A DNA stretch of 64,000 bases from positions 40,044,173 to 40,108,172 of the forward strand of contig OX031070.1 in the NCBI GenBank assembly GCA_943736015.1, read 5' to 3'. Numbering within the stretch: position 1 is the stretch's first letter; every line of letters starts with the position of its first letter. A program made the translations under genes and the position numbers. Origin of the DNA: Tridacna crocea (taxonomy: Eukaryota; Mollusca; Bivalvia; Cardiida; Cardiidae). The notes beneath the pieces were generated by a model that saw nothing but the letters and a program-made list of their open reading frames with translations, was not told the origin of the DNA and did not search any database. Shown here piece after piece: positions 916 through 64,000 of the stretch.

Positions 916-28884
<27,969 letters not shown>

Positions 28885-48461: not shown

Positions 48462-48560
48462 ATACCAGAAATCAATCAAAGTCATGTACATATCAAGAAT
48501 GTTGAGGAAGTGAAGAAGAAACTGGAGAAGATTATTTCTGATGGTCCATCTAAATTGCAG
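48462..48560 (+). CDS. NT5C3: NT5C3-like common exon (N-terminal helix)
   Basis: 33 codons, phase 0/0, acceptor TTTCAG, donor GTAAGC. It encodes IPEINQSHVHIKNVEEVKKK and LEKIISDGPSKLQ, matching the family pattern PEF..S.VRIK followed by a basic helix and KLQ directly before the motif-I strand. Confidence 0.85.
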
Positions 48561-51500
48561 GTAAGCACAATATTCCATGGAGTAGAAAGTCATTGAACTA
48601 ATGATTCAATTGTCTTTTGAACCTTAATCTATCAAGTGCAAAGATTTTAGACTTTTCGTAATTTAGACAATTTCCAGATGGCAAATTATTCATGAAAAAA
48701 ATGATGGACATATGATAGAAAAAGTAAAAAATTCTGGTATAACCAGCATTTTCTCCTTTTCTCACATTGTTTTCAAGGCCCACAGCCTTCTACACCAAAG
48801 TTGTTTTAACTCTTTACCAGACAACATGATTTTAGACTTGTCCAAATTGAAAGCATTTGCAGAAGACAAAATAAAAATTACTCAGTTTTGAATTTTGGAA
48901 CAGAAGGAAAAAATTTGGGGAAATGGAGAGAATACTGGTTGCCAGCATTTTCTCCTATTCCCACAATTTTTTCAAGAGGCTTTCTGGTAACGGCTGTTTA
49001 AGTCATCACCTTGTGGTAAAGAGTTATACTTGTGTGGTTACAGTAAAACTGCTAAATATATCTATGGTAGATTAACAAACATTTTGTTTTACAGATAGCT
49101 GAAGCCCAAATATTTTCATGTCAATTTTCATCAAGCCAGAAAGTGTCACCATATTGGATAGTGTACATATAAGATCGAACTGCACTCTTAGTGTATTCTG
49201 ATTGTGATCTCTGTTCCTAAAAGTGCATTAACTCTTTCCCAAACAATCCCTGGTTTTTACGGATCAGGAATAGAAGCGGTTTGAAAACATCGTGTGAAAA
49301 GGAGAAAATGCTGGTAACCAGCATTTTCTCCTTTTCCCACAATGTTTTCTACCCTATCATATTGAAAAATCATCTTTTTAGCAACTGTTAATTTGTCATC
49401 TGCAAAATGCTTTCAATTTGGTCTGGTCCAAAATTTGCCGTTTGGGAAAGGGTTAAGGTGCCCTAGCAACTTACATTGCTACCTGAAATGGCCTGTTGTG
49501 CTTTGGCCACATTATAAAACTTTGTGGTGAAAGAAGAACCTGCTTATAGCAAGTTTCTCCTTGTGCCACACTGTATTATTAAGTATTTATCCATAATACC
49601 ATTTTTTTTTCATATTGATAATGCAAGTTTTTTCTTGGGCAGCTTGAGCTAGACCTAAAATGTTCACATTTATAAGTAAATCAGATTTGATAGGAACTGT
49701 GTCTCTATTCATCAACCATTGTTAAAATTCTTCTTTGCGTTATTCTCCAAGACTTTCAAAATTTGAAAAGTAACACAACTTCTGATTGAGATACAACCAG
49801 ATGTGGTGTTGCTTTCAAATTTCGAAAATGCTGTGGTGAATGGGACCCTGGCGAACCAAGGTTAACTTTAAACTCTTTACCAAACGACAAATTTTAAGAC
49901 TGGTCCAAATTCAAAGCATATGCAGACGACAAGATAAATGTGGCTCAAAAATGAAATTTGTTTTGAGAAGGTTATAAAATATTGTGGGAAAAGGAGAAAA
50001 TGCTGGTTACCAGCATTTTCTCCTTTTCTCACAATGTTTTCAAAAGGCTTTTCATTCATGGTTGTTAAAACACGGAATTGTGTGGTAAAGAGTTGGAGTA
50101 GTGTCAAGCCATTATCTGATAAGGTTTGGGGCAACAACCTTCTCGGACACTAGCCCTAGGATATCAAATAGAAGTGGACGACCTTGTCCTTTTAGGGTTA
50201 AAGGTTTTGCCAAAGATGGAAATTAACAAATGTACTTTGAAAACTAGATCTCAAAGATCTAAAGTTAGACTCCACAAGCAATTTTTTGTATATGTATATA
50301 ATACAAGTTCTTTTAAACCCTGAACAATATCAACCCTTTATCACACAATGACAACTTTAATAGCCCCTGAAATAGTAGTTGGTCACCAGCATTTTCTCCT
50401 TTTCCCACAATGTTTTCTACCCTATCAACTTTCTTTGAAGTGACTGACTACTCCTTCATACACACTAAAGTTGAGAGGTAAAAAATTTATTGGAAAGAAA
50501 GTACGGTAGCCAGGTATCAAACTCAGAATCATCAGGTCACAAGTCTGATACACTAATCTCTGAGGTACCCTGGCAAGTTAAAAGGGTAGAAAACACTGGA
50601 AAATGGAGAAAATGTTCTTATAAAAAAACAAAGTCTGTAACAAAGAAACAAAGGAACAAATGCATGGCATAAATAAGGGACCGGGAGGGATTCGAACCCT
50701 AGAATGCCCTGACGAAAGGCCAATACCTTATTCACTGAGCCAAAGATATAATCTCTCCAATGCAGTAACTGTTGTTAGGTACTGTATTTAACCCATTACC
50801 ACACAATCCCTCCTTTTGACGCCCCTGAGGAAGAAGCCTTTAGAAAACATTGTGGGAAAAGGAGAAAATGCTGGTAACCAGCATTTTCTCCTTTTTCCAC
50901 AATGTTTTCTGGTCTTCCCATATCAAATTTCGATTCTTCCATCACATTTATTTTGTCGTCTGCAAATGCTTTCAATTTTGACTAGTCTATACATGCACGG
51001 ATCCAGATATCTTTCTCATGGGGGGGTCCCACCGAAAACGCACTTGTCTTATATGATTTCCGGATTTCAGTGGATGTGAGTCATTTACAAGAAAAGTCAA
51101 CATTTCCAGTTCTAAACATGAGGAGGTCTCCACTGTTAGAACCTTTTTTTAGCTCACCTGAGCACAACGTGCTCAAGGGGAGCTTTTAGGATCACCCGGT
51201 GTCCGTCGTCCGTCGTCCGTCGTGCGTCGTGCGTCGTCCGTCGTGCGTCGTCAACAATTCTTTAAACATCAACTCCTCCTAAACCGCTGGGTGGATTTGG
51301 ACCAAACTTGGCAGGAATGTTCCTTGGGAGGTCCTCTTTAAAAATTGTTCACAGAATTTGATTCCATCAAAAACTCTGGTTGCCATGGCAACCAAATGGA
51401 ATTTTTTAGCAAATTCTTTAAAAATCTTCTCCTCTGAAACCGCTGGTTGGATTTTAAAATAATTTCACAGATATGTTCCTTGGGTGACCCTTTTCAAAAA

Positions 51501-54500
51501 TTGTTCGTGAAATTTTGATTGGTCAAAAAATGTGGCTCTGGTGAATGGGGGCTTCTTGCACTATACAGAAATGAAGGAATTCTTTAAAAATCTTCTCCTC
51601 TGAAACCGCTGGTCGGATTTTGAAATAATTTCACAGATATGTTCCTTGGTTGACCCTTTTCAAAACTTGTTCGTGAAATTTTGATTGGTCAAAAAATGTG
51701 GCTCTGGTGAATGGGGGCTTCTTGCACTATACAGAAATGAAGGAATTCTTTAAAAATCTTCTCCTCTGAAACCGCTGGTCGGATTTTGAAATAATTTCAC
51801 AGATATGTTCCTTGGTTGACCCTTTTCAAAAATTGTTCATGAAATTTTGATTGGTCAAAAAATGTGGCTCTGGTGAATGGGGGCTTCTTGCACTGTACAG
51901 CAATGAAGGAATTCTTAAAAAATCTTCTTCTCTGAAACCGCTGGTCAGATTTTGAAATAATTTCACAGAGATGTTCATTGGGTGACCCTTTTCAGAAATT
52001 GTTCGCGAAATTTCGATTGGTCGAGAAACATGGCTCTGGTGAATGGGGGCTACTTGCACTATACAGAAATGAAGAAATTCTTAAAAATTCTTCTTCTCTG
52101 AAACTGCTGGCCAGATTTTAAAATAATTTCACACAGATGTTCCTTGGGTGACCCTTTTTAAAAATTGTTTGCGAAATTTTGATCCGTCAAGAAACATGGC
52201 TCTGGTGAATGGGAGCTTCTTGCACTATACAGAAATGAAGAAATTCTTAAAAATTCTTCTTCTCTGAAACCGCTGGCCAGATTTTGAAATAATTTCACAG
52301 AGATATTCCTTGGGTGACCCTTTTCTAAAATTGTTCGCGAAATTTTGATTGGCCAAGAAACATGGCTCTAGTGAATGGGGGCTACTTGCACTAGATGGAA
52401 ATGAAGAAATTCTTGAAAATTCTTCTTCTCTGAAACCCGTGGTCAGATTTTAAAATAATCTGACAGAGATGTTCCTTTGGTGACCCTTTCCAAAAGCTGT
52501 ACATATAATTTTGATCCGTCAAGAAACATGGCTCTTGTGAATGGGGGCTACTTGCACTATACGGACATGATGAAATTCTTTAAAATTTTCTTTCTCTGAA
52601 ACCCCTGGTCAGATTTTGAAATAATTTCAGAGAGATGTTCCTTGGGTGACCCTTTTCAAAACTTGTTCGTAAATTTTGATCCATCAAGAAACATGGCTCT
52701 CGTGGATGGGGGTTACTTGCTCTTATACAGAAATGAAGAATTCTTAAAAATTCTTCTTTTTGAAACTGATGGTCAGATTTCGAAATGACTTTTACAGGTG
52801 ACCTTTTGAAAACTGCTTGGCAAAATTATAAATTTGGTTCCAATGTTTCAACGCTAAAAAAGAAAAAAAAAAAAATAGACTATGGTCATCTCAAAAATTC
52901 AGGTGAGCGATCCAGGGCCATCTTGGCCCTCTTGTTTAAATTTATGACTGTATTTAGATAAATTCTGTGCAGTATCAAACCAGTCCCATTCACGAATCTT
53001 ATAACCACATTTTTGCCAAAATTCCAGGGGGGGTCCTGACCCCCGGTTCCCCCTCTGGATCCGCCCATGCTATAAATTTGTCGTTTGGTAAAGAGTTAAA
53101 GCTGGACAAAGCCATACATGAAGGAGTGTACTCCCATAACAATGTTGGATATCAGCATTGGCCTCTTTTCTCACAGTGTTTTGAAAATTCTTCATACTCA
53201 AGGTTGTTAATATCAGGATTGTGTGAATTTGGAAATGAGTAAAATTTTGTTGTTTGGTATAGAGATGTGAAGTGTAGATTTTACGAATAATACCGCTTGC
53301 AGTTTGAAATACATGTATACTTTTCTGTAGCTGTGTGGTAGTTTAGCAAGCGTTTGAATACTGTTCACATATTAGGTATGTTCGGATTTTGATGCAACCA
53401 TTACTGCCCCGTCTGGCGCTTCCTCTTACGGTAAGTATAGGTGAAGGTTTATTTAACTTTTTACCAAACAACAAAATTTCGGACTCTTGGAAATTGAAAG
53501 CGTTTGCAGACAACAAAGTAAAAGTGAGAATTTGACATTGTTTCATGAAGGGTGGAAAAAACATTGTGGGAAAAGGAGAAAATGCTGGTTACCAGCATTT
53601 TCTCCTTTTCCCACAATGTTTTCAAAAGGCTTCTATCTCAGCGTTGTAAAAACCAGGGATTGTTTGGTGAAGGGTTTATTCTTAGCCCTTTTCTAGATGA
53701 CAACCAAAAGACTTGTCTAAATTTAAAGTATCTGCAGACGACAAATTAAGTATGCTTAAATTGTAAGATTTGTTTCCATTAGATCAGAAGTGGTCAGGAG
53801 AAAACTCCAGTATCGCAGCATTTTCCTATTTTTTCACATTTTTCGCATGCCTTCTTCCTTGGGGTCATGAAATCTTGGGGTTGTCTGACTCTCTGTTAAA
53901 GGAATTAAAAGACTATTCAGCTCTCAGTATACATCCTGCATTGAGCTCGCCTTACATTATGTAATATGAGAAAGGCAAAACCTCAGTGCAAGCATCATGA
54001 ATAATAATTCAAATGAAAACCCACATTTGATTTCTCATTTTCTTTTCCTATTATAGGTGAGTTAAGATAAATTTACCTTCGAGGCACTGTGTAGAATCCA
54101 ATACCATCGCATTGTCTCGAGAAGGCTTGTCCAATTTATTACCATGCAATAATGATCAAAGAGAGATAACTCTGTCTGACTGGCATTAATAAGTATTTAG
54201 TATTACTTTGTTGAAGTGGGTGAGATTGTAAAAACCTGAATAGCCCTGTTTTAATAGAAAGTCTAGATAAAATGTCAGTTTTGAAACTTACAGGTTTTGT
54301 TATTTACTTGATACCTTTGGAACCTATTATTAAATTTTGTAACTTGATTGTCAATTTATTGGTCAAATGCTGTAAATTGATTGGTCAAAAGTCTCACAAA
54401 GTCTCATTATGGAACCTATCAAAATTCTTTTTTTGTTATTTATGAGAACAAGATTTGACCAAATGTCGGTTGGTAAATAACTGATGTGAAGTAACGTTGG

Positions 54501-57500
54501 CAACAGATAGTGAACTTTGGTAACCTTTTACTAAACAGTCCCATACATTTTTACCCTGAGGAAGATGGCTTGGAAGAACATTGTGGGAACCAGTATTTTG
54601 CTCTTTTCTTACAATGTTGTGTCTCATTTCCAACACTTACAATCATATTCTCCAAAATCCAATTTGTTGTCTGAAAATATTTTCAATTTAGACTGGTCTA
54701 AGAATTTGTCATTTGGTAAAGAGTTTTAAAAGTAATCTATAGTGAGCTTTCAGCTGCCTTTCATTCAATCCTTCCCCTGATTCCAATACAGATGCAACAT
54801 GACACATCCACAGAAGCAGAATTCTGCCCAGGATAACTTAATTTACCCAAACACTGTAAGCTCGTGCTTATAATCAGTAATTTTTTGGGAAAAAAAGTTA
54901 GAAAACCATTTACCAGGCGACGAAATTTTAGAATTGTCCAAAATCAAAGAAAAATTTGCGGACAATGAATTTAAGTGTGACTCAAATGCTGAGAGTTGCC
55001 TTTGAAAGGATAGAAAGCATGCTAGTAACTGCATTTTGTCTGGTGAAGTTTTAACTCTTTACCAAACAACAAATTTTAGACTGGTCCAAATTCAAAGCAC
55101 TTGCAGGCGACAACATAAACATAACTCAAAAATTTAAGTTTGTTTTTTCCAGCAGGGTAGAAAACATTGTGGGAAAAGGAGAAAATGCTGTTTACCAGCA
55201 AAAGGCTTCCATCTAAGGGTCGTGAAAATAATTTGTCTTTTTGCCACAGTGTTTTTCACTAATAGTCTGCATAGGGAAGGATGTCATAAACTGATAAATT
55301 CTAATGAAACAATTTTAAGCCTTTACCAAACAATCCCTGGTTTTTAAGACCCTGAGATAAAAGCCTTTTGAAAACATTGTAGGAAAAACAGAAAAATTGC
55401 TGGTAACAAGCATTTTCTCCTATTCCCATAATTTTTTTCCATCCTGCCGGAAACGAATTTCAATTTTTGAGTTAGATTTATTTTGTTGTCTGCAAGTGCT
55501 TTCAATTCAGACCAGGTTTATTTTGTCATCTGCAAGTGCTTTCAATTCGACCAATCTTAAATTTTGTCATTAGGTAAAGACTCTGTAAAGTACCTTTCTG
55601 TTTTCTAGTTACCTGATTCACGGCAGGGAATCATGTGACACAACAACAACAAAAATGACCCAACATTTGAAAAAATTCCCCAACTTGAGGTAAGAAAATC
55701 TTCAATAATTCCGTTAATACATGACCGATTGGATTTTGGTTTGAAGCAGAGAAGGCGGAAGGACTCCAGAGATTTGCTTGATGTGTTAGATTTTTTAAAC
55801 AACGCCCGATAAAAAAGTTATTGACGAGCAAACAAATTTTTTACCCTGGATAATTTGTTTGCTCGTCAATAACTTTTTTATCAGGTGTCATTTAAAAAAT
55901 CTAACACATCAAGCAAATCCCCAGAGTCCTTCCACCTTCTCTGCTTCAAACCAAATTCCAATCGTCACATATTAACGGAATTATTGAAGATCTTCTTACC
56001 TGTAGTGGGGGAATTTCTTCAAATGTCGGTCATTCTTTTTGTTTTTGTGTCACGTGATTCCCCGTCGTGTGATTGGTCTGTATGTAAATCAAGGTCAGAC
56101 TACACAAAATGTTCAGTCTTATCTTTGATCCTCCCCATCCCAATTGCTGAGTCATTCTTAAAAACAGCAGCCTTGAACTTCCAACTATTTCTCGACTGAA
56201 AATTCAGGTTAGGGCTATGGTATATTTTGCTTTCTGATACTGTGGGCTGGCTCCTGTGTTGTGGGTCTTATCATTTTTTCCCTGCTTTCACCATTCTTCT
56301 GGGGCAGCGGCAAAATTGCTAGTACTTAGTGTTACCTTCATACCTTTACACATTTAGGTTTGCTCTGATTTCGATGCAACAATAACTTCTCCCTATGGGC
56401 CATGTTCATACAGTAAGTATTGCATTTGAGCTGTGTCCTTTTTAACATACACTAGAATGATGTGTTATATATTTTCGTGGATGTAATATCACAAAATTTA
56501 CACCAATATGAAAAATCCAGCGTTGTGTGATTTGAGGGTCCTGCGGTAGTGATGGCAAGAGATAATGTAGAATAAGCTTAAATCTTTACCAAACTACAAA
56601 ATCTGTCAAGATTAAAAGCATTTGCAGTTGACTAATGAAATACAGTCCAAATGATAAAATTTGCTTTTAACCCATTACCATACAATCCCTACTTTTGACA
56701 CCCCTGAGAAAGAAGGTTTTAGAAAACATCGTGAGAAAAGGAGAAAATGCTGGTAACCAGCATTTTCTCCTTTTCCCACAATGTTTTCTACTATGCTCGT
56801 CAAAATGGGGCTCAGTGGTTTATGGTTAACTCTTTACCACACGAGAAAATTTTAGACTGGTCCAAATTGAAAGCATTTGCAGACGACAAAATAAAGGTGA
56901 CTGAAAAATTGAAATTTGTTCTGGTAAGGGTAGAAAACACTGTGGAAATGAGAAAATACTGGTTACCAGCATTTTCTCCTTTTCCCATAGTGTTTTCAAA
57001 AGGCTTCTTTCTCAGGGGCGTCAAAAGTAGGGATTGTGTGGTAATGGTTTAAAAAAAACATGCTCCGTCAGGAGGGAGCTCATTGGTCCATGGGACCAAG
57101 CAAGCTATTGTATATTTATGGATCCATAGTATGGGCTCTTTTTTTTTTTTAAACTATCTTAATCATGAGGTAGACAGGTCCCTAGTTAAACAGAAAATTG
57201 GCCAATAGCAAAAGGATTCAGCATAGTTCAGCCTGCACGAACTGCGCAGGCTGACCGAGTCAATACTTATCGCAGATGCACTATTAGCCCCCTTTTCACA
57301 GTGCATGGCTCAAATGTTTGAACACAAGCTGAAGGCTTTTAACTGGCTACATGCCATTGGTTTATAGAATTTAAGAAAAATATGATTATCAGTATCTGAA
57401 ACTAAATATTCATTATAGAGATTTCTTATTCTTAAAAATTCCTCAGTCTCTAATCTTAAAAAGAAAAAGAGAAAAATGAGCAATATCACCTGATCCCAGC

Positions 57501-59122
57501 CGCACTTGGAACTTTATTTGAAAAGTTCAGTCAGTATTTGCTAATCTGTATGTTGTCATAATGCACTGTATTGTCTGCTTGTGTTAGTTCTAGGCTAGTG
57601 TTCAGTTAACCCTTTCCTAAACAAGCCCTGGTTTTTACATGTCTGCAGTCAAAGTCTTTGAAAACACTGTGGGAAAAGGAGAAATTGCTCATAACGAGCA
57701 ATTTCTCCTTTTCCCACAGTGTTTTCTACCCTTGTTTAGAGCTTTCTGCAATTTTCTCCAAATCTAAAATTGTCGTCTGCAAACTCTTTCAGTTTGGAAG
57801 GGTCCAAAATTTGTTGTTTGGGAAAGGGTTAAGCTAGTATTCAACTCCAGTTCTTGGCAAATATTTAACAGAAAGAGTTATCTCCCTTAATTAGAATTTC
57901 AGCCTTAAAGAATGAGTACTATATTCTGTGAACAGAATTTCACATTGGGGAAGGTGTTCCAAAGTTACCTGCCCCGAAACTAATTTCCTTAGGTGTCTGT
58001 TTTACAGACTTCACCAGCATTTCCTCTTGCACCACAATGTTTTTAAGAAGCCTGTATTCTTGTGGTTCATTATACCCCAAGAATTGGTGGAAATGTTAAC
58101 TCATTACCAAACAACAATATTTTAGGATTGTCCAAATCGAACGCATTTGCAGACCACAAAATTAAAGTGACTGAAAAATTGAAATTTGTTTTTTGAAGGG
58201 TAGAAAAACATCGTGGGAAAAGGAGAAAATGCTGGTTACCAGCATTTTCTCTGTTTCCCACAATGTTTTCTAAAGGCTTCTTTCTCCGGGGCATCAAAAG
58301 TAGGGATTGTGTGGTAATGGGTTAAATAACTTATCTTTGTTCTAACGAGACAAAAATGAAATAGAAATTAGAAAATTTTTTTCTTTTTTTTTTCCAATTT
58401 TGAAAATTGAAACCATACAATTTTTTTTACCCCTTCCTGACAGTATTTTCAGGAGTCATTAACTACAGCTTCCTTTATTCCCTACCAAAGAATCCAGATG
58501 TAAACAGTGTGAAAAAAAAAAGAGAAAATGTTGGGCACCTTATAAAAGAATTTTACTTGCATAAACAAATTTAGCCAATGTGTACCCTGTGCCAAACAGC
58601 AAAGTGTTTTAGACTTGTCCAAAATGAAAGCAAGTGCAGAAAACAGATTAACACTTTCTCACACAATCCCAACTTTTAACAGCCTTTTGAAAACACTGTG
58701 GGTAAAGGAGAGAACGCTGGTAACCAGCATTTTCTCCTTTTCCCACAATGTTTTCTTCTTCCCTTCCTGAATCAAATTTAAATTCTTTAGTCACATTTAT
58801 TTTGTCGTCTGCAAATGCTTTCAATTTGGACCAGTCTAAAATTTTGTCGTTCGGTAATGGGTTAAAGAAACCTGAAATGATGGGATTGGTCTTTGAAAGG
58901 GATTGAAAACAATCTGGGAAAAAGAAGGAAAAGCTGGTTACCAGCCTTTCCTTCTTTTCCACAATGCTTTCCAAAGTTTTATTTCTCAGAATCTTATAAG
59001 TAAGAGATTGTTTGGTGAAGGGTAAAGCAAATATTTCTATTTATACTTTCAGGTGGTGGCCGATTTCGATAGAACTTTGTCTAAGTACATGCATCGTGGA
59101 AACGTGTGTGCAACTTGCCACA
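48462..59122 (+). CDS. NT5C3: Cytosolic 5'-nucleotidase III-like, 5' exons with three alternative motif-I exons
   Basis: Family members are HAD-superfamily phosphatases that remove the 5' phosphate from pyrimidine nucleotides or 7-methyl-GMP in the cytosol. One common exon (48462-48560) ends in GPSKLQ, as the family does just before its catalytic motif. Three candidate next exons follow: 53376-53430 (VCSDFDATIT), 56358-56412 (VCSDFDATIT) and 59053-59122 (VVADFDRTLS...VCATCH). The last is the canonical family form. All keep the Asp nucleophile and second Asp of HAD motif I, enter in phase 0 and leave in phase 1. The cap domain and later motifs are not in the window, nor is the start codon, which should be on an upstream exon I cannot place. 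NT5C3A and NT5C3B cannot be separated from this much. Confidence 0.85.
48618..48805 (-). mobile_element. TTAA-MITE A, decayed
   Basis: AAAGATTTTAGACTTTTCG and TTCTGGTATAACCAGCATTT; bounded by the TTAA of the next element. Confidence 0.6.
48806..49027 (-). mobile_element. TTAA-MITE A
   Basis: TTAACTCTTTACCAGAC to GGTAAAGAGTTAT; left stem eroded (TTTGGGGAAATGGAG). Confidence 0.82.
49228..49455 (+). mobile_element. TTAA-MITE A with CCCAAAC ends
   Basis: A-type hairpin with C-like termini CTCTTTCCCAAACAATCCC and GTTTGGGAAAGGG: a mosaic of the two types. Confidence 0.9.
49490..49580. mobile_element. TTAA-MITE B hairpin remnant
   Basis: TTGTGGTGAAAGAAG, GCTTATAGC, TTCTCCTTGTGCCACACTG. Confidence 0.35.
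49698..49855. mobile_element. GTATTCACC palindromic MITE, diverged
   Basis: CTATTCATCAACCATTG, AAGTAACACAACTTCTGATT, then TGGTGTTGCTTTC and TGGTGAATGGGACC. Confidence 0.7.
49868..50096 (-). mobile_element. TTAA-MITE A, complete
   Basis: TTAAACTCTTTACCAAACG to GGTAAAGAGTTGG; hairpin near perfect. Confidence 0.9.
50331..50440 (+). mobile_element. TTAA-MITE A, left hairpin arm deleted
   Basis: CAACCCTTTATCACACAATG, then jumps to TTGGTCACCAGCATTTTCTCC. Confidence 0.7.
50628..50787 (-). mobile_element. tRNA-derived SINE
   Basis: On the reverse strand a tRNA-like head: A box TGGCTCAGTGAATAAGG and B box GGTTCGAATCC about 40 bp apart. Body includes TTTGTTTCTTTGTTAC. Second copy at 36010. Confidence 0.7.
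50992..53069. mobile_element. Element with CATG..CGGATCCAGA inverted ends
   Basis: Starts CATGCACGGATCCAGA and ends TCTGGATCCGCCCATG, with GGGGGGTCC near both ends; flanked by CTATA duplication. It carries the AGCTCACCTG repeat at 51150-52937 inside; without that it is about 290 bp and has no coding capacity. Confidence 0.8.
51150..52937 (+). mobile_element. AGCTCACCTG repeat, long copy
   Basis: Starts AGCTCACCTGAGCAC, has (CGTCGTC)n at 51202-51250, about nine tandem units of 166 bp (each with TCTGAAACCGCTGGTC, TTGGGTGACCC and GAATGGGGGCTTCTTGC) and ends AATTCAGGTGAGCGATCC, GGCCCTCTTGTTT. Confidence 0.88.
53150..53262 (-). mobile_element. TTAA-MITE A remnant
   Basis: GTTGGATATCAGCATTGG, TCACAGTGTTTTGAAAATTC, GGATTGTGTG. 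Confidence 0.5.
53376..53430 (+). CDS. NT5C3: NT5C3-like alternative motif-I exon 2a
   Basis: 55 nt, 18 codons plus one base: VCSDFDATITAPSGASSY. Acceptor ATTAG with a poor pyrimidine tract, donor GTAAGTAT (strong). The DFDAT signature of HAD motif I is intact. It is five residues shorter than canonical exon 2c, replacing the loop after the catalytic strand. It ends SSY, which recalls the SSY at the same place in NT5C3B-type proteins. Confidence 0.75.
53453..53679 (-). mobile_element. TTAA-MITE A, complete, after exon 2a
   Basis: Lies 23 bp beyond the exon 2a donor. Perfect hairpin; right end GGTGAAGGGTTTA. Confidence 0.9.
53683..53901 (-). mobile_element. TTAA-MITE A, decayed
   Basis: TTAGCCCTTTTCTAGATGAC, GCAGACGACAAATTAAG, weak hairpin around CTCCAGTATCGCAGC. 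Confidence 0.5.
54519..54727 (+). mobile_element. TTAA-MITE A, diverged
   Basis: GTAACCTTTTACTAAACAG, left hairpin arm mostly missing, R end GGTAAAGAGTTTT. Confidence 0.7.
54900..55050 (-). mobile_element. TTAA-MITE A, decayed
   Basis: CGACGAAATTTTAGAATTG, GCGGACAATGAATTTAAG; bounded by the TTAA of the next copy. Confidence 0.5.
55051..55230 (-). mobile_element. TTAA-MITE A, right hairpin arm deleted
   Basis: Left arm and stem to ATGCTGTTTACCAGC, then directly AAAAGGCTTCCATC: the 26-bp right stem is gone. Confidence 0.82.
55315..55583 (+). mobile_element. TTAA-MITE A with R-arm duplication
   Basis: TTATTTTGT(T/C)(G/A)TCTGC-type 40-bp segment occurs twice (about 55477 and 55519). Confidence 0.8.
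55621..56067. mobile_element. Foldback element with 215-bp arms
   Basis: Arms 55621-55838 and 55852-56067, apex ACAAATTTTTTACCCTGG. Outer ends GGGAATCATGTGACAC and GTGTCACGTGATTCCCC. Lies in the intron between alternative exons 2a and 2b. Confidence 0.9.
56358..56412 (+). CDS. NT5C3: NT5C3-like alternative motif-I exon 2b
   Basis: 55 nt, 18 codons plus one base: VCSDFDATITSPYGPCSY. Same length, phase and donor (GTAAGTAT) as exon 2a. Its first ten codons encode the same ten residues as 2a with six silent differences, so it is an old coding duplicate rather than a recent copy. Confidence 0.75.
56577..56666 (-). mobile_element. TTAA-MITE A, R arm only
   Basis: TTAAATCTTTACCAAACTAC, GCATTTGCAGTTGAC; ends at the TTAA of the next copy. 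Confidence 0.65.
56667..56829 (+). mobile_element. TTAA-MITE A, R arm shortened
   Basis: L arm and hairpin intact (GGTAACC loop); R arm replaced by GCTCGTCAAAATGGGG. Shares TTAA 56826-56829 with the next copy. Confidence 0.82.
56826..57052 (-). mobile_element. TTAA-MITE A, abutting
   Basis: TTAACTCTTTACCACACGAG to GGTAATGGTTTAA; left stem shortened (CTGTGGAAATGAG). Confidence 0.9.
57157..57330 (+). repeat. Dispersed AATCATGAGGTA repeat, copy 3
   Basis: AATCATGAGGTAGACAGGTCC, CCAATAGCAAAAGG, GCGCAGGCTGACCGAG, CCCCCTTTTCACAGTGC. Confidence 0.6.
57606..57832 (+). mobile_element. TTAA-MITE C, complete
   Basis: TTAACCCTTTCCTAAACAAG to GGGAAAGGGTTAA; core TTGCTCATAACGAGCAA. Confidence 0.92.
58005..58095 (+). 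mobile_element. TTAA-MITE hairpin right half
   Basis: ACCAGCATTTCCTCTTGC, CACAATGTTTTTAAGAAGCC. Confidence 0.5.
58096..58325 (-). mobile_element. TTAA-MITE A, complete
   Basis: TTAACTCATTACC to GGTAATGGGTTAA; one unpaired base in the right stem (TTCTCTGTTTCCC). Confidence 0.92.
58570..58647 (-). mobile_element. TTAA-MITE R-arm fragment
   Basis: GCCAAACAGCAAAGTG, AGACTTGTCCAAAATG, GCAGAAAACAG; ends at the TTAA of the next copy. Confidence 0.5.
58648..58865 (+). mobile_element. TTAA-MITE A, complete
   Basis: L arm shortened before CCTTTTGAAAACAC; R arm full, ends GGTAATGGGTTAA. Confidence 0.9.
58875..59030 (-). mobile_element. TTAA-MITE, divergent hairpin, before exon 2c
   Basis: Core AAAGCTGGTTACCAGCCTTT with stem GGGAAAAAGAAGGA; both hairpin arms changed together. 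L end GGTGAAGGGTAAA lies 22 bp before the exon 2c acceptor. Confidence 0.7.
59053..59122 (+). CDS. NT5C3: NT5C3-like motif-I exon 2c (canonical form)
   Basis: 70 nt, 23 codons plus one base: VVADFDRTLSKYMHRGNV then CATCH. Acceptor ATACTTTCAG is strong, donor GTACGA is weak. The DFD.TLS, RG and C..CH positions follow the known family pattern. Exit phase matches 2a and 2b. Confidence 0.85.
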
Positions 59123-59383
59123 GTACGAATCTTTATGATTACTTATAGAACTGTGTGTTTGCCCCGTTTCCTTACAGTTGACAGTTTGTTGTTTGGGTCT
59201 TTATAATTATGAGTTTATCGTTCTTACAGTTACTAGGCAGATTGAAAAAAAGTGTGTATCATTCTGTTGTCCCCAAAGATCCTGTAATTTACCCTCCCCC
59301 CACTCTGATAGTCTTTTTGACCAGAATGAAAAAAAGGATTTGAAGAAAAATCACAGTTCCAAACTATTTTGTGTATTATGTCA

Positions 59384-59591
59384 TTAACTCTTTACTAAAC
59401 AACAAAAGTTTTTGACTAGTCCAAATTGAAAGCATTTGCTGACAATGAAATAAACGTAACTCAAAAATCAAAACTTGTTTCCATCAGGGTAGAAAACATT
59501 GTTACCAGCATTTTCTCCTTTTCCGGCAATGTTTTCAAAAGGCCTCTATCTTAGGTTTGTAAAAACAAGGGATTGTTTGGTAACAGGTTAA
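59384..59591 (-). mobile_element. TTAA-MITE A, left hairpin arm deleted
   Basis: GAAAACATTG is followed at once by TTACCAGCATTTTC. Confidence 0.85.
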
Positions 59592-59658
59592 ACTTACTTT
59601 TATGGCAACGCTGCAATTTTTTTCAGGGAACAAGAAAAATAATTTATTTGTTTGGTGT

Positions 59659-59890
59659 TTTATCCTTTTACCAAATAATCCCTGGTTTTTACAACCCAGA
59701 GGAAGAAGCCTTCTGAAAACATTGAGGGAAAAGGAGAAAATGCCATTATTACCAGCATTTTATCCTTTTCCCACAATGTTTTCTACTCTTCTAAAGTCAA
59801 ATTTCAATTTTTGAGTGCTATTTATTTTATTGTCTGCAAATGCTTTCAATTTGGACAAGTCAAAAATTTTGTCGTTTGGTAAAGAGTTAA
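59659..59890 (+). mobile_element. TTAA-MITE A, complete
   Basis: Left TTTATCCTTTTACC, loop region ATGCCATTATTACCAGCAT widened. Confidence 0.88.
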
Positions 59891-60141
59891 AGCTGTTTCC
59901 AAGGTCATATTTTTGTCACAGTGGCCATAGCACACATCCATATAGTCTGGGTATTCAATGGTACATGGCATGCCATTCTTTCCAATCTACTGGCTGCTTT
60001 CTCATGAAGACATAGACATGACAGTGTTAAGTATGAGAGAGGAATGAATCTGGTAGCATTGACTATCGCCTGTCCTTGGAAGTAAAAAATGTGATGTGGA
60101 AAAGCCTTGAATCAAACCAGCTATCCTTGGATTTTAAAGCC

Positions 60142-60626
60142 CAGGCCTGTATTCACCAACTATTCTTAACCCTTTACCACACGTATGAATTTAGACCTAT
60201 CCAAATCGAAAGCATTTACAGACCATAATTTTATAGTGGCTCAAATGATGCAATTTTTCTTTGATAGAGTAGAAAATGTTGCGGGAAAAGGAGAGTAGAA
60301 AATGTTGCGAGTAAAGGAGAAGATGCTGGTTACCAGCATTTTCTTCTTTTCCCACAAAATTTTCAAAAGGCCTCTTCCTCATGGTCGTCAAAAGTCGTCA
60401 TTGTGACGTAAAGGGTTTAGAACGTTCTCTGTCTTATTCTCCAAAATTTTTCTACATTCGGAAGTAACACAACTGATTGGCTAAATCGAATACTAAACCA
60501 TTCGGTTTAGCCTGGCTAAACCATTCGGTTCAGCTAATCCGAAGTTGTGTTACTTACAAATTTAGAAAACCTTTGAAAATAAAGACTACGAATAATCTCA
60601 AGAATGGTTGGTGAATACAGGCCCTG
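60142..60626. mobile_element. GTATTCACC palindromic MITE with TTAA-MITE inside
   Basis: CAGGCCTGTATTCACCAAC at the left, TTGGTGAATACAGGCCC at the right, AACACAACTGATTGGC and AAGTTGTGTTACTTAC inside. Confidence 0.88.
60166..60419 (-). mobile_element. TTAA-MITE A, nested, with stem duplication
   Basis: GAGTAGAAAATGTTGCG is tandemly duplicated in the left stem. Inserted at the ATTCTTAAGAAC-like position of its host element. Confidence 0.9.
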
Positions 60627-60724
60627 TACATTTCTGAGTAAGCTAACAGGCTTGGTACAAACAAAATACACAGACAGGCTTTCATCAAGCTACTTAAGAA
60701 GTCTCATGTGTATCGGTCAACTAA

Positions 60725-60775
60725 CAAGGTAACGCAGTTGGTATATGTACAGGACTTTCGACTAGGAGTTGCTTG
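60725..60775 (+). mobile_element. SINE head, split by a MITE pair
   Basis: AACGCAGTTGGTATATG and ACAGGACTTTCGACTAGG match the tRNA-like start of the SINE at 7294; continuation at 61240. Confidence 0.5.
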
Positions 60776-61004
60776 TTAACCTATTACCACACAATCCCTA
60801 CTTTTGATGCCCCTGAGAAAGATGCCTTTAGAAAACATTGTGGGAAAGGGAGAAAATGCTGATAACCAGCATTTTCTCCTTTTCCCACAATGTTTTCTAT
60901 CCTTTACAAAACAAATTTCAAATTTTCAGTCACTTTTATTTTGTCGTCTGCAAATGCTTTCGATTTGGACAACCCTAAAATATTGTCGTTTGGTAATGAG
61001 TTAA
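60776..61004 (+). mobile_element. TTAA-MITE A, tail-to-tail pair, first
   Basis: Core ATGCTGATAACCAGCAT. Shares TTAA 61001-61004 with the next. Confidence 0.92.
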
Positions 61005-61228
61005 CTCTTTACCAAACAACAAAATTTCAGACTTGTCCAGATTGAGAGCATTTGCGGACGACAATTTCAATGTGGTTCTATAATCTGATTTATTGTTCGA
61101 TAGGATAGAAAACCTTGTGGAAAAAGGAGAAAATGCTGGTTACCAGCATTTTCTCCTTTTCCCACAATGTTTTCTAAAGGCTTCTTTCTCAGGGTTGTCA
61201 AAAGTAGGGATTGTGTGGTAATGGGTTA
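61001..61228 (-). mobile_element. TTAA-MITE A, tail-to-tail pair, second
   Basis: R arm variant CGACAATTTCAATGTGG; right end GGTAATGGGTTAA. Confidence 0.92.
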
Positions 61229-61239
61229 AATCCACATCT

Positions 61240-61310
61240 TGGCCACTTTGTTTCTGAGGATTGGTGATAGTCATCGTGACAGAATTCTTTCCTCTCTTAC
61301 TGCTAACCTG
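61240..61310 (+). mobile_element. SINE body fragment
   Basis: TTTCTGAGGATTGGTGATAG and TTCTTTCCTCTCTTACTGC align with the SINE at 7294-7560 after its head. Confidence 0.55.
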
Positions 61311-61313
61311 AGT

Positions 61314-61512
61314 TTCAAAATTTTAGACTGAACCAAAATGAAAGTACTTTTTGACCACCAATTCAGTTTAGCTCAAAAGATCAGTTCTGCCTTTGAAATG
61401 GTAGAATGCAATGGGAGAAAAGGACAAAACGAGGGTTACCCGCATTTTCTCCTTTTCCCACCATTTAGGCCCTCCCCCTCAAGGTTGTTTAGACATGCAA
61501 TCTTTTGGTATA
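61314..61512 (-). mobile_element. TTAA-MITE A, decayed
   Basis: Core AACGAGGGTTACCCGCATT; R-arm word TTTTAGACTGAACC. Confidence 0.6.
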
Positions 61513-61551
61513 GTGTCACATTTCACACATTTTTATCACCCTGCAAAACAA

Positions 61552-61738
61552 ATGTTTTTGGGGGGTATACTGGAATCAGCCTGTCTGTCCGTGTGTCCAT
61601 CTGTGTGTCTGTGCTTGTGTCTGTCCCTGTGTCCGCCAATGTGTCTATCTGTGAACAAAATACCAGTATTTGCTGGTTTCTGTCAAAGCACTGGCGGGGG
61701 TATTACTAGTAAGTCAGATTAAGTGACAGCTCTAGTTT
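61552..61738 (+). mobile_element. GTATACTGG...GACAGCTCTAGTT repeat with CTGTCTGTCC tract
   Basis: GGGGGGTATACTGGAATCAG, CTGTCTGTCCGTGTG, then GGCGGGGGTATTACTAG and AAGTGACAGCTCTAGTTT. Confidence 0.7.
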
Positions 61739-61768
61739 ATATTGCAAGAGTATTTTTCTTTTATTTAT

Positions 61769-61997
61769 GTAACCCTTTACCAAACAATCCTTAGTATTAA
61801 CTACCCTATGGAAAAATATCTTCTTGAAACATCATGGGAAAAAGAGAAAATGCTGGTAACCAGCATTTTCTCCTTTTCCCACAATGTATTTTTACCCTCC
61901 AAAGTTGAACTTACATTTTTGAGGCCCAGTTATTGTGTGGTGTGCAAAAGCTTTCAATCCGAGCAAGTCTAAAATGTTGTTGTTAAGTAGAAGGTTA
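61769..61997 (+). mobile_element. TTAA-MITE A, complete
   Basis: GTAACCCTTTACC to GTAGAAGGTTAA; hairpin core intact, R arm diverged. Confidence 0.85.
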
Positions 61998-62095
61998 AGG
62001 GAGATGATACATTCTTACATGAGATTTTAAAAATTTGGTCGAAGGGCAAAGACTAGCTGCATAGTGCATACATAGCACAGACTTTGCAGAAATGC

Positions 62096-62298
62096 CTTGA
62101 TAGATTTCACTTACTTTCAACCAACCAAGTTTCGTAATAAAAAGGGAGATAACTCCACTTACTTTCAACCCACCAATTTTCATCATAAGGGAGGTAACTC
62201 TACTTGCTTTCAACCCACCAATTTTCGTCATAAAAAGGGAAATAACTCTACTTGCTTTCAATCCACCAATTTTCGTCATGAAAAGGGAGATAACTCTA
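62096..62298 (+). repeat. Tandem repeat, four 48-bp units
   Basis: CTTACTTTCAACC/CTTGCTTTCAACC at 62109, 62157, 62203 and 62251, each with CCACCAATTTTCGTCAT and GGGAGATAACTC. Confidence 0.88.
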
Positions 62299-62472
62299 TC
62301 AAATGGTGAATGATTTTTGCTATGCATGGCTTTTTTCTTTTTTTCGTTCTAAGAGGTGTTCCTTGTACCCCTCCCAATAGTCAATACAAGCTAATATAGA
62401 CAAAATTTAACTTTACCTTGTATAGTTTTTATCCCATAATGTGCTAGAACTGTTTTAAGTTTCTTTACATTT

Positions 62473-62527
62473 TAGATAAAGATCAGACTGCACAGAACCT
62501 GCAGTCTGATCTCTGATCGACACTGTT
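62473..62527. repeat. Hairpin in GATCAGACTGCACAG repeat
   Basis: AGATCAGACTGCA (62480-62492) pairs perfectly with TGCAGTCTGATCT (62500-62512). Confidence 0.75.
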
Positions 62528-62582
62528 TGTTTCTTTGCTACTGTAAAACTACTTTACTTGTCAATACAGTAACTGTGTTTTT

Positions 62583-62811
62583 TTAACTGTTTACAAAACA
62601 AAAAAATTGTAGACTTGGCCAAGTTGAAAGGATTTGCAGATGACAAAATAAAATGCAGCTCAACAAATGAAATTTGTTTCCAGCAGGGCAGAAAACATTG
62701 TGGGAAAAGGAGAAAATGCTGGTTACCAGCATTTTCTCCTTTTCCCTCAATATTTTCAGAGGCTTGTTTCTCAGGGTCGTTTAAAGTCAGGATTGTGTGG
62801 TGAAGAGTTAA
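62583..62811 (-). mobile_element. TTAA-MITE A, complete
   Basis: TTAACTGTTTACAAAAC to GGTGAAGAGTTAA; perfect upper stem. Confidence 0.9.
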
Positions 62812-62863
62812 TGCGGCATCCGAAGTGTTAAGGAAACAGTATTGATTTTCTATTTTGATATAT

Positions 62864-62988
62864 GGAAAATTCTTTTTTCCCAGGACAAATCTGACAGAAT
62901 AAGACAGTAAAAATTTCTGTTTTATAGAAAATTCTTTTTTGCCAGGACATATCTGACAGTATCAGACAGTAAAAATTTCTATTTTATA
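62864..62988 (+). repeat. Two-copy tandem repeat, about 61 bp
   Basis: GAAAATTCTTTTTT(C/G)CCAGG and AGACAGTAAAAATTTCT occur twice. Confidence 0.85.
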
Positions 62989-63218
62989 TTAACCCATTAC
63001 CACACAATCCCTACTTTTGACGCCCCTGAGAAAGAAGCCTTTAGAAAACACTGTGTGAAAAGGAGAAAATGCTGGTAACCAGCATTTTCTCCTTTTCCCA
63101 CAGTGTTTTCTACCCTTCCCAAAGCAAATTTTCAATTTTTCAGTCACTTTAATTTTGTTGTCTGAAAATGCTTTCAATTTGGACCAGTCTAAAATTTTCT
63201 TGTGTGGTAAAGAGTTAA
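62989..63218 (+). mobile_element. TTAA-MITE A, complete
   Basis: TTAACCCATTACCACAC to GGTAAAGAGTTAA; stem ACACTGTGTGAAAAGG on the left. Confidence 0.92.
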
Positions 63219-63413
63219 AGTGTTTAAAGTGGGATTATTTGTTTGGCATTAAAGTTCCTTCACAAAGAAAAATAATCTTTGTCCAGTTTCTGCTGTAAGT
63301 TTTCATACTCTTCCATAAATACATGTAGTTTATCAATAACTTTCAATAACATCATTTATATAGTAGCTTTACAGGAGTAGTTTCAGAATGTGAATGTACT
63401 GTTCAGATCTTCT

Positions 63414-63642
63414 TTAACCCATTACCACACAATCCCTACTTTCGATGCCCCTGAGAAAGAAGCCTTTTGAAAACACTGTAGGAAAAGGAGAAAATGCTGG
63501 TAACCAGCATTTTCTTCTTTTCCCACAATGTTCTCTACCCTTCCCAGATAGAACTGCTATTTTTGAATCATATTTATATTGTCGTATAACTGCAAATGCT
63601 TTCAATTTGGACTGTCAATTTTGTCGTTCGGTCAAAAGTTGA
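63414..63642 (+). mobile_element. TTAA-MITE A, complete
   Basis: Right end decayed to GGTCAAAAGTTGA; right stem has TTCTTCTTTTCCC. Confidence 0.9.
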
Positions 63643-63696
63643 TGTTGCCATTTGAAATTCTTTAGAAATAGATTTAAATTCTCTTGTTTGTATTTC

Positions 63697-63914
63697 TTAA
63701 CCCTTTACCATACAATTCCAAGTTTTAACAGCTTGTAGAAGACAGCTTTTGAAAATATTCTGGGAATGGGAAATTATGTTGATAAACAGCATTTTCTCCT
63801 TTTCCACAGTGTTTTCTTTCTGTTCCTAGGCAATGTCATCATTTGAACCCTATTTTAATAGTTTATTGTCTGCACTAGCTTTCAATTTGGAGAAAGCTGA
63901 AACTTTGTTGTCCA
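63697..63914 (+). mobile_element. TTAA-MITE A, diverged
   Basis: TTAACCCTTTACCATACAAT start; core ATGTTGATAAACAGCAT. Confidence 0.75.
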
Positions 63915-64000
63915 AATGACAAATTTTGGGACTGGACCAAATTCAAAGCATCTGCAGCCAACAAATTCATCTTGGTAATATGATGATTTTCTGACCTGGA
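63915..64000 (-). mobile_element. TTAA-MITE A, R arm, cut by window end
   Basis: AATGACAAATTTTGGGACTGG and AAAGCATCTGCAGCC. Confidence 0.65.

Follow-up and report, generated by a model that had tools for sequence, protein, structure and literature searches.

The analysed stretch of DNA (64,000 nucleotides from contig OX031070.1 of the bivalve Tridacna crocea; hereafter, the window) is animal DNA with a G+C content of 35%, and carries on its + strand part of a gene for a cN-III (NT5C3-type) 5'-nucleotidase. A common exon of this gene is followed by three candidate alternative exons (2a, 2b, and 2c), each containing a complete DFDxT motif (motif I):

48462..48560, + strand: common exon of the cN-III (NT5C3-type) gene, 99 nt, phase 0 at both ends, product IPEINQSHVHIKNVEEVKKKLEKIISDGPSKLQ, ending in PSKLQ
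53376..53430, + strand: alternative exon 2a, 55 nt, product VCSDFDATITAPSGASSY plus one base (g)
56358..56412, + strand: alternative exon 2b, 55 nt, product VCSDFDATITSPYGPCSY plus one base (a)
59053..59122, + strand: canonical exon 2c, 70 nt, product VVADFDRTLSKYMHRGNVCATCH plus one base (a)

The exon borders (slash) were ctttcag/ATACCA...TTGCAG/gtaagc for the common exon, attag/...TTACG/gtaagt for 2a, tttag/...ATACA/gtaagt for 2b, and ttcag/...CCACA/gtacga for 2c. The alternative exons were located downstream of the common exon on the same strand, 2.6 to 4.8 kb apart, and all of them were entered at phase 0 and exited with one base of a split codon. A preliminary description of this DNA, which had been made from the letters alone, gave exactly these coordinates for the four exons, and its proposal that three exons with a full DFDxT motif follow one common exon was borne out by the splice sites and phases.

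Membership of the cN-III family was clear from the joined exons: the common exon plus 2c matched mouse cN-III with an E-value of 2.1e-10 and all 57 residues aligned (mouse residues 13-69, of which 13-45 corresponded to the common exon), and the common exon plus 2a matched Drosophila cN-IIIB (E-value of 1.2e-4) and mouse cN-III (7e-4). A Pfam scan of the window fragments, which were at most 56 residues long, gave no PF05822 and only sub-threshold matches to unrelated families; PF05822 was found in two full-length proteins of Mya arenaria, P0150 and P0148 (see below). Motifs II and III (FSAG and K...GDS.GD) were both present in P0150, and the corresponding exons of the Tridacna gene are beyond the window. 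Relatives were collected with a query of all three exons padded with X, and 29 proteins (at least 26 of them from molluscs) were scored among 121 candidates; every count out of 29 in the following refers to this set. When the window was searched with these 29 proteins by tblastn, the common exon was matched by 24 queries, 2c by 28, and 2a and 2b by a single one (P0150), and no exon for the rest of the gene was detected, placing the downstream exons outside the window. Three further matches elsewhere in the window (E-values of 0.77-0.99) were taken as chance. Another motif I-like sequence, SDFDTTLS at 26196-26219, was also treated as chance: it was far upstream of the common exon, in an apparent intron of the clathrin-like gene (see below).

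The lengths of the three exons (55, 55, and 70 nt) are all 1 modulo 3. Each of the three two-exon combinations and the three-exon combination, placed after the common exon, ran into a stop codon at a distance of a few codons at most from the first junction. Skipping all three exons shifts the frame, because the phase-0 end of the common exon would meet a next exon that has to be entered in phase 1. Since the frame breaks with none, two, or three of these exons, a productive mRNA uses exactly one. The cluster showed properties expected of mutually exclusive exons: tandem homologous exons, equal start and end phases, and a frame kept by a single exon only. Exon 2c also contained a phase-matched alternative donor (gtgcaa at 59108), from which a 55-nt exon of the same length as 2a and 2b would result, with equally weak U1 pairing (-1.9 kcal/mol); this short form was rejected, since the full-length exon was found in 28 of the 29 relatives.

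Both strands of the window were scanned for exon-like starts: an AG with DFDxT in the codons that open the exon, a frame free of stops, and a GTA or GTG donor in the matching phase. Exactly three starts were found, corresponding to 2a, 2b, and 2c, and the same scan of 200 dinucleotide shuffles of the window gave one start in total. Exons 2a and 2b differed at 16 of 54 bases, with 2, 2, and 12 differences at codon positions 1, 2, and 3, respectively, and 14 of 18 residues were identical in the products. All six differences in codons 1-10 were silent (simulated P = 7e-5), and constraint was also significant over all 18 codons (simulated P = 7.5e-5); codons 11-18, which contained the four amino-acid differences, were not significantly constrained on their own (P = 0.15). 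Apart from the dispersed repeat (see below) and short scattered matches, the similarity reached only approximately 10 nt upstream and 8 nt downstream of the exon. Likeness ending so close to the exon edges indicates an old exon duplication, not a recent or assembly-made copy, and a duplication in the assembly was rejected because the flanks were unlike beyond approximately 10 nt. Judged from their sequences, 2a and 2b are an old pair of coding exons that is still under selection.

The 2c type was found in 28 of the 29 relatives, in 27 of these directly after KLQ. One relative, Mya arenaria isoform X2 (P0150), had the arrangement ...GAKKLQ VCSDFDATITNYKGPCSY N VLEEGG..., corresponding to the common exon, a 2b-type exon, and the shared body; its alternative exon was identical at 15 of 18 residues to 2b and at 13 of 18 to 2a. 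In a second Mya protein, P0148, a 2c-type exon preceded the body (VVADFDRTLSKYKHNGHVCATCH N VLEEGG...). From that Asn to the end, 191 of 191 residues of P0148 were identical in P0150, in three blocks separated by two gaps, at which 13 and 27 residues of P0150 had no counterpart. The two proteins were also recorded with the same longest contig, of 71,406,691 bases. A 2b-type and a 2c-type exon on an identical body point to one Mya locus with both exon types. The proposal that motif-I exons are exchangeable within one gene therefore gained support from these predicted proteins, and a separate gene for each exon, the outcome that the preliminary description had named against itself, is unlikely given P0150 and P0148. 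The P0150 isoform is already public through automatic annotation. Exon 2a itself was not found outside the window among the 29 relatives. The protein database was clustered at 90% identity, and isoforms differing only in the motif-I exon may be hidden in other clusters. A protein search with the common exon, 2a, and the body of human NT5C3A gave 797 matches, and the organisms named among the 120 matches listed were vertebrates. With the common exon plus 2a padded with X as the query, 8 candidates were obtained, none of which was scored. Two cN-III proteins each were found in Mercenaria mercenaria (P0123 and P0142) and Mactra antiquata (P0129 and P0131), all four of the 2c type; within each species, the two proteins were recorded with contigs of equal length, and the gene may be tandemly duplicated in these species.

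What the exchange changes was examined by comparison with the characterized enzymes. In Drosophila cN-IIIB, the nucleobase is sandwiched between Trp120 and Phe75, and the position of Phe75 is occupied by His68 in cN-IIIA and by Tyr60 in human cN-IIIB, according to the structural comparison by Monecke et al. 2014 (PMC3946280). The following residue is Gly76 in the fly enzyme and Asn69 in cN-IIIA, and in all three Phe/His mutant pairs reported there, His gave higher K m values for cytidine monophosphate (CMP) and 7-methylguanosine monophosphate (m7GMP) (PMC3946280). This stacking position aligned with the final full codon of each alternative exon: His in 2c, and Tyr in both 2a and 2b. An aromatic Tyr or Phe at this position, a marker (although not a strict one) of cN-IIIB, was therefore present in 2a and 2b, while the full cN-IIIB flap after motif I was absent from them. 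The residue after the stacking position is encoded by the split codon and is Asn with either exon in Mya; since 2b and 2c end in a and 2a ends in g, Asn and Asp are expected, respectively, provided that the following exon begins like that of Mya. The preliminary description had correctly noted that 2a and 2b are five residues shorter than 2c, and this difference is located in the flap. The squiggle and flap are described as the features that give the flexibility for switching between open and closed states (PMC3946280). AlphaFold models contained a flap hairpin in a 2c-type enzyme and no hairpin in the 2b-type P0150, with the fold kept in the latter. The earlier idea of an exchanged active-site strand and loop was refined in that the catalytic residues themselves are unchanged (DFDxT in all three exons). 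The swap would instead affect the flap and the stacking residue, the latter not mentioned in the preliminary description, and this is the better reason to expect altered substrate handling.

These results make it likely that functional exons with an altered active site are spliced in a mutually exclusive manner in this mollusc cN-III gene, and that enzymes with different substrate pockets probably arise from a single gene. After the common exon, the spliceosome would include just one of the three exons 2a, 2b, and 2c, followed by the shared exons beyond the window. Each choice would bring the nucleophile and acid/base aspartates, and with DFDxT in every exon, each isoform is predicted to be catalytically able. 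Two elements would be exchanged: the flap that follows motif I, for which 2c has a complete hairpin and 2a and 2b have a loop with five residues fewer, and the base-stacking residue, His in 2c (cN-IIIA-like, His68) and Tyr in 2a and 2b (human cN-IIIB-like, Tyr60). The split codon could also alter the neighboring pocket residue, with Asn probable for 2b and 2c, and Asp for 2a. The 2a and 2b isoforms would then likely stack the base more tightly and have a flap that is more open, beside a standard 2c isoform, and the expected effect is a changed affinity for CMP and uridine monophosphate versus m7GMP or perhaps bulkier modified nucleotides. The exons, their phases, the coding constraint, and the frame behavior are observed here, as is the same arrangement in predicted Mya proteins; the splicing in T. 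crocea, the exclusivity in its transcripts, and the change in substrate preference are inferred.

A more specific extension, which we put forward only tentatively and hold to be somewhat doubtful, is that the isoforms of one bivalve gene divide by splicing the roles of vertebrate cN-IIIA and cN-IIIB. Exon 2c would then provide the cN-IIIA-like pocket (His, full flap) and 2b a cN-IIIB-like pocket (Tyr-Asn), and the Tyr-Asp pocket of 2a, with an acidic residue beside Tyr, could favor the positively charged m7-guanine from mRNA caps. No Tyr-Asp pocket like that predicted for 2a was found among the sequences compared. Under this extension, nucleotides that are larger or carry other modifications may be accommodated by the open flap, and the catalytic nucleophile would sit on an interchangeable exon.

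Several observations count against mutually exclusive exons with altered substrate handling. P0150 and P0148 are predicted proteins from a species other than that of the window, and P0148 has a different N-terminus and lacks the common exon as well as 40 body residues. The 2a/2b type was found in just 1 of the 29 relatives listed, and wide conservation is thus not established, although this count is a lower bound due to the clustering of the database at 90%. Similarly, the short flap form occurred in only 1 of 27 alignment rows, and the P0150 model was least certain in the flap (mean predicted local distance difference test score of 70 for residues 41-50). On the enzymological side, Tyr is absent from the mutants in Table 3 of PMC3946280, Tyr or His is found at the stacking position among cN-IIIB orthologues, and the k cat/K m value of human cN-IIIA for m7GMP is merely 6-fold below that for CMP (PMC3946280). 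The occurrence of both residues among cN-IIIB orthologues and the m7GMP activity of cN-IIIA indicate that this residue shifts preferences and is no switch alone, so that a Tyr here is no proof of an m7GMP preference. Furthermore, the donor of 2c (gtacga) is weak. Using one simple measure, the U1 duplex energy, values of -11.0, -11.2, -7.5, and -1.7 kcal/mol were obtained for the donors of the common exon, 2a, 2b, and 2c, respectively, and among all 3629 GT sites of the window, 58% equaled or exceeded the 2c donor in pairing strength. A weak 2c donor beside strong 2a and 2b donors suggests that 2c depends on additional signals for its use.

Among other explanations, the exons may be truly alternative, with short-flap isoforms that are weak or inactive and that lower or regulate nucleotidase activity without any new substrate preference. 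The loss of five flap residues, the lack of a hairpin there in the AlphaFold model, and the description of the squiggle and flap as the basis of open/closed flexibility (PMC3946280) agree with this explanation; however, 2a, 2b, and Mya P0150 all retain the threonine as well as the two catalytic aspartates, only silent changes separate 2a and 2b over DFDATIT, the residue at the stacking position is aromatic and shows no degeneration, and the model retains the fold, so that we regard it as rather unlikely. A control of mRNA amount as the main function of the cluster, through the inclusion of two exons, premature stops, and transcript decay, would fit the stop soon after the junction in every two- or three-exon combination, as well as the far stronger donors of 2a and 2b than that of 2c. 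A poison exon, however, needs neither a kept frame nor a complete motif I under purifying selection, both of which 2a and 2b provide singly, and Mya P0150 is a full-length predicted protein with a 2b-type exon alone; this explanation is improbable.

Least probable of all, in our view, is that 2a and 2b are pseudo-exons, or remains or parts of a separate neighboring or nested cN-III gene. The window contains no downstream exon that ties 2a and 2b in, and 28 of the 29 relatives lack this exon type. On the other hand, neither a second common exon nor any other cN-III exon was found in 48462-64000, silent-only change speaks against decay, and in Mya, the body that follows the 2b-type exon also follows the 2c-type exon. 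On these grounds, separate genes and pseudo-exons were both rejected.

Other features of the window were as follows. Exon 2a starts with a donor-like sequence directly after its acceptor (AG/GTATGT at 53376), as in recursive splice sites. A palindromic repeat (core ...GGAGAAAATGCTGGTNACCAGCATTTTCTCC...) was dispersed across the introns of the window (1-64000; for example, at 53578-53625, 56745-56792, and 58722-58750), with 40 exact copies of the right half (ACCAGCATTTTCTCC) and 28 of the left half (GGAGAAAATGCTGGT) on the + strand, and looks like an element of the miniature inverted-repeat transposable element (MITE) type. The intron between the common exon and 2a contained a tandem array at 51411-52786 (166-bp unit repeated 8.3 times, 89% matches). 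Visual inspection suggested a long and imperfect inverted repeat at about 55640-56050, approximately 300 bp upstream of 2b and with arms of approximately 150 bp or more, which could fold the pre-mRNA. A clathrin heavy chain-like gene was found on the + strand at about 1.7-27 kb, ahead of the nucleotidase gene; one of its open reading frames, near 24.1-24.9 kb, was assigned by Pfam (PF00637, E-value of 6.6e-40), and the others by eye.

Several enzymes with exchangeable exons are known. The exchanged part of CYP4F3 lies outside the catalytic haem site, the exchanged exon of ketohexokinase is not known to carry the catalytic residue, and cN-IIIA and cN-IIIB are encoded by separate genes. Exons 6a and 6e of coq-2 in nematodes, flatworms, annelids, and molluscs are described as mutually exclusive homologous exons that change the core of a metabolic enzyme near its substrates, similar to the cluster of this study; however, coq-2 encodes a membrane prenyltransferase, both exons are 134 nt in Caenorhabditis elegans, and the swap concerns two helices near the substrate path, not the nucleophile strand (PMC7434440). 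Human CYP4F3 exons 3 and 4 (CYP4F3B and CYP4F3A, respectively) likewise give one gene different substrates, arachidonic acid or leukotriene B4, but in another enzyme class and with two exons instead of three (PMC12380495). Exclusive exons 3A and 3C of ketohexokinase change the substrate affinity of a small-molecule enzyme by tissue, in this case a kinase (PMC6464065), and the mutually exclusive exons 4a and 4b of OGDH, also a metabolic enzyme, set calcium sensitivity and not the active site (PMC7969005). A further parallel is provided by vertebrate cN-IIIA and cN-IIIB (NT5C3A and NT5C3B), which share the fold and motif I and differ at the same pocket position (PMC3946280; PDB 2bdu, 4fe3, 7zee, and 4nv0). 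These are described as two different enzymes (PMC3946280), each with a full-length flap in our alignment, whereas the His/Tyr difference found here is between exons of one gene, with a flap five residues shorter in the Tyr versions. The cluster would therefore belong with the known alternative exons that change the substrate handling of enzymes, and would be new in that the nucleophile segment is swapped, in three versions, one length class of which (2a and 2b) lacks most of the flap. The preliminary description knew of no earlier account of swapped motif-I exons in cN-III, and none was found in the open-access literature searched.

To our knowledge, enzymes seldom have alternative versions of the segment that bears the nucleophile. 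The precedents compared swap other parts, and the segment proposed to be swapped here carries the nucleophile, the acid/base residue, the flap, and the base-stacking residue. Because solved structures and published mutants at the stacking position are available, the prediction is directly testable. If it is true, annotation pipelines with one model per locus would miss active-site variants, and the animal would tune nucleotide salvage or the clearance of cap nucleotides by splicing, without gene duplication.
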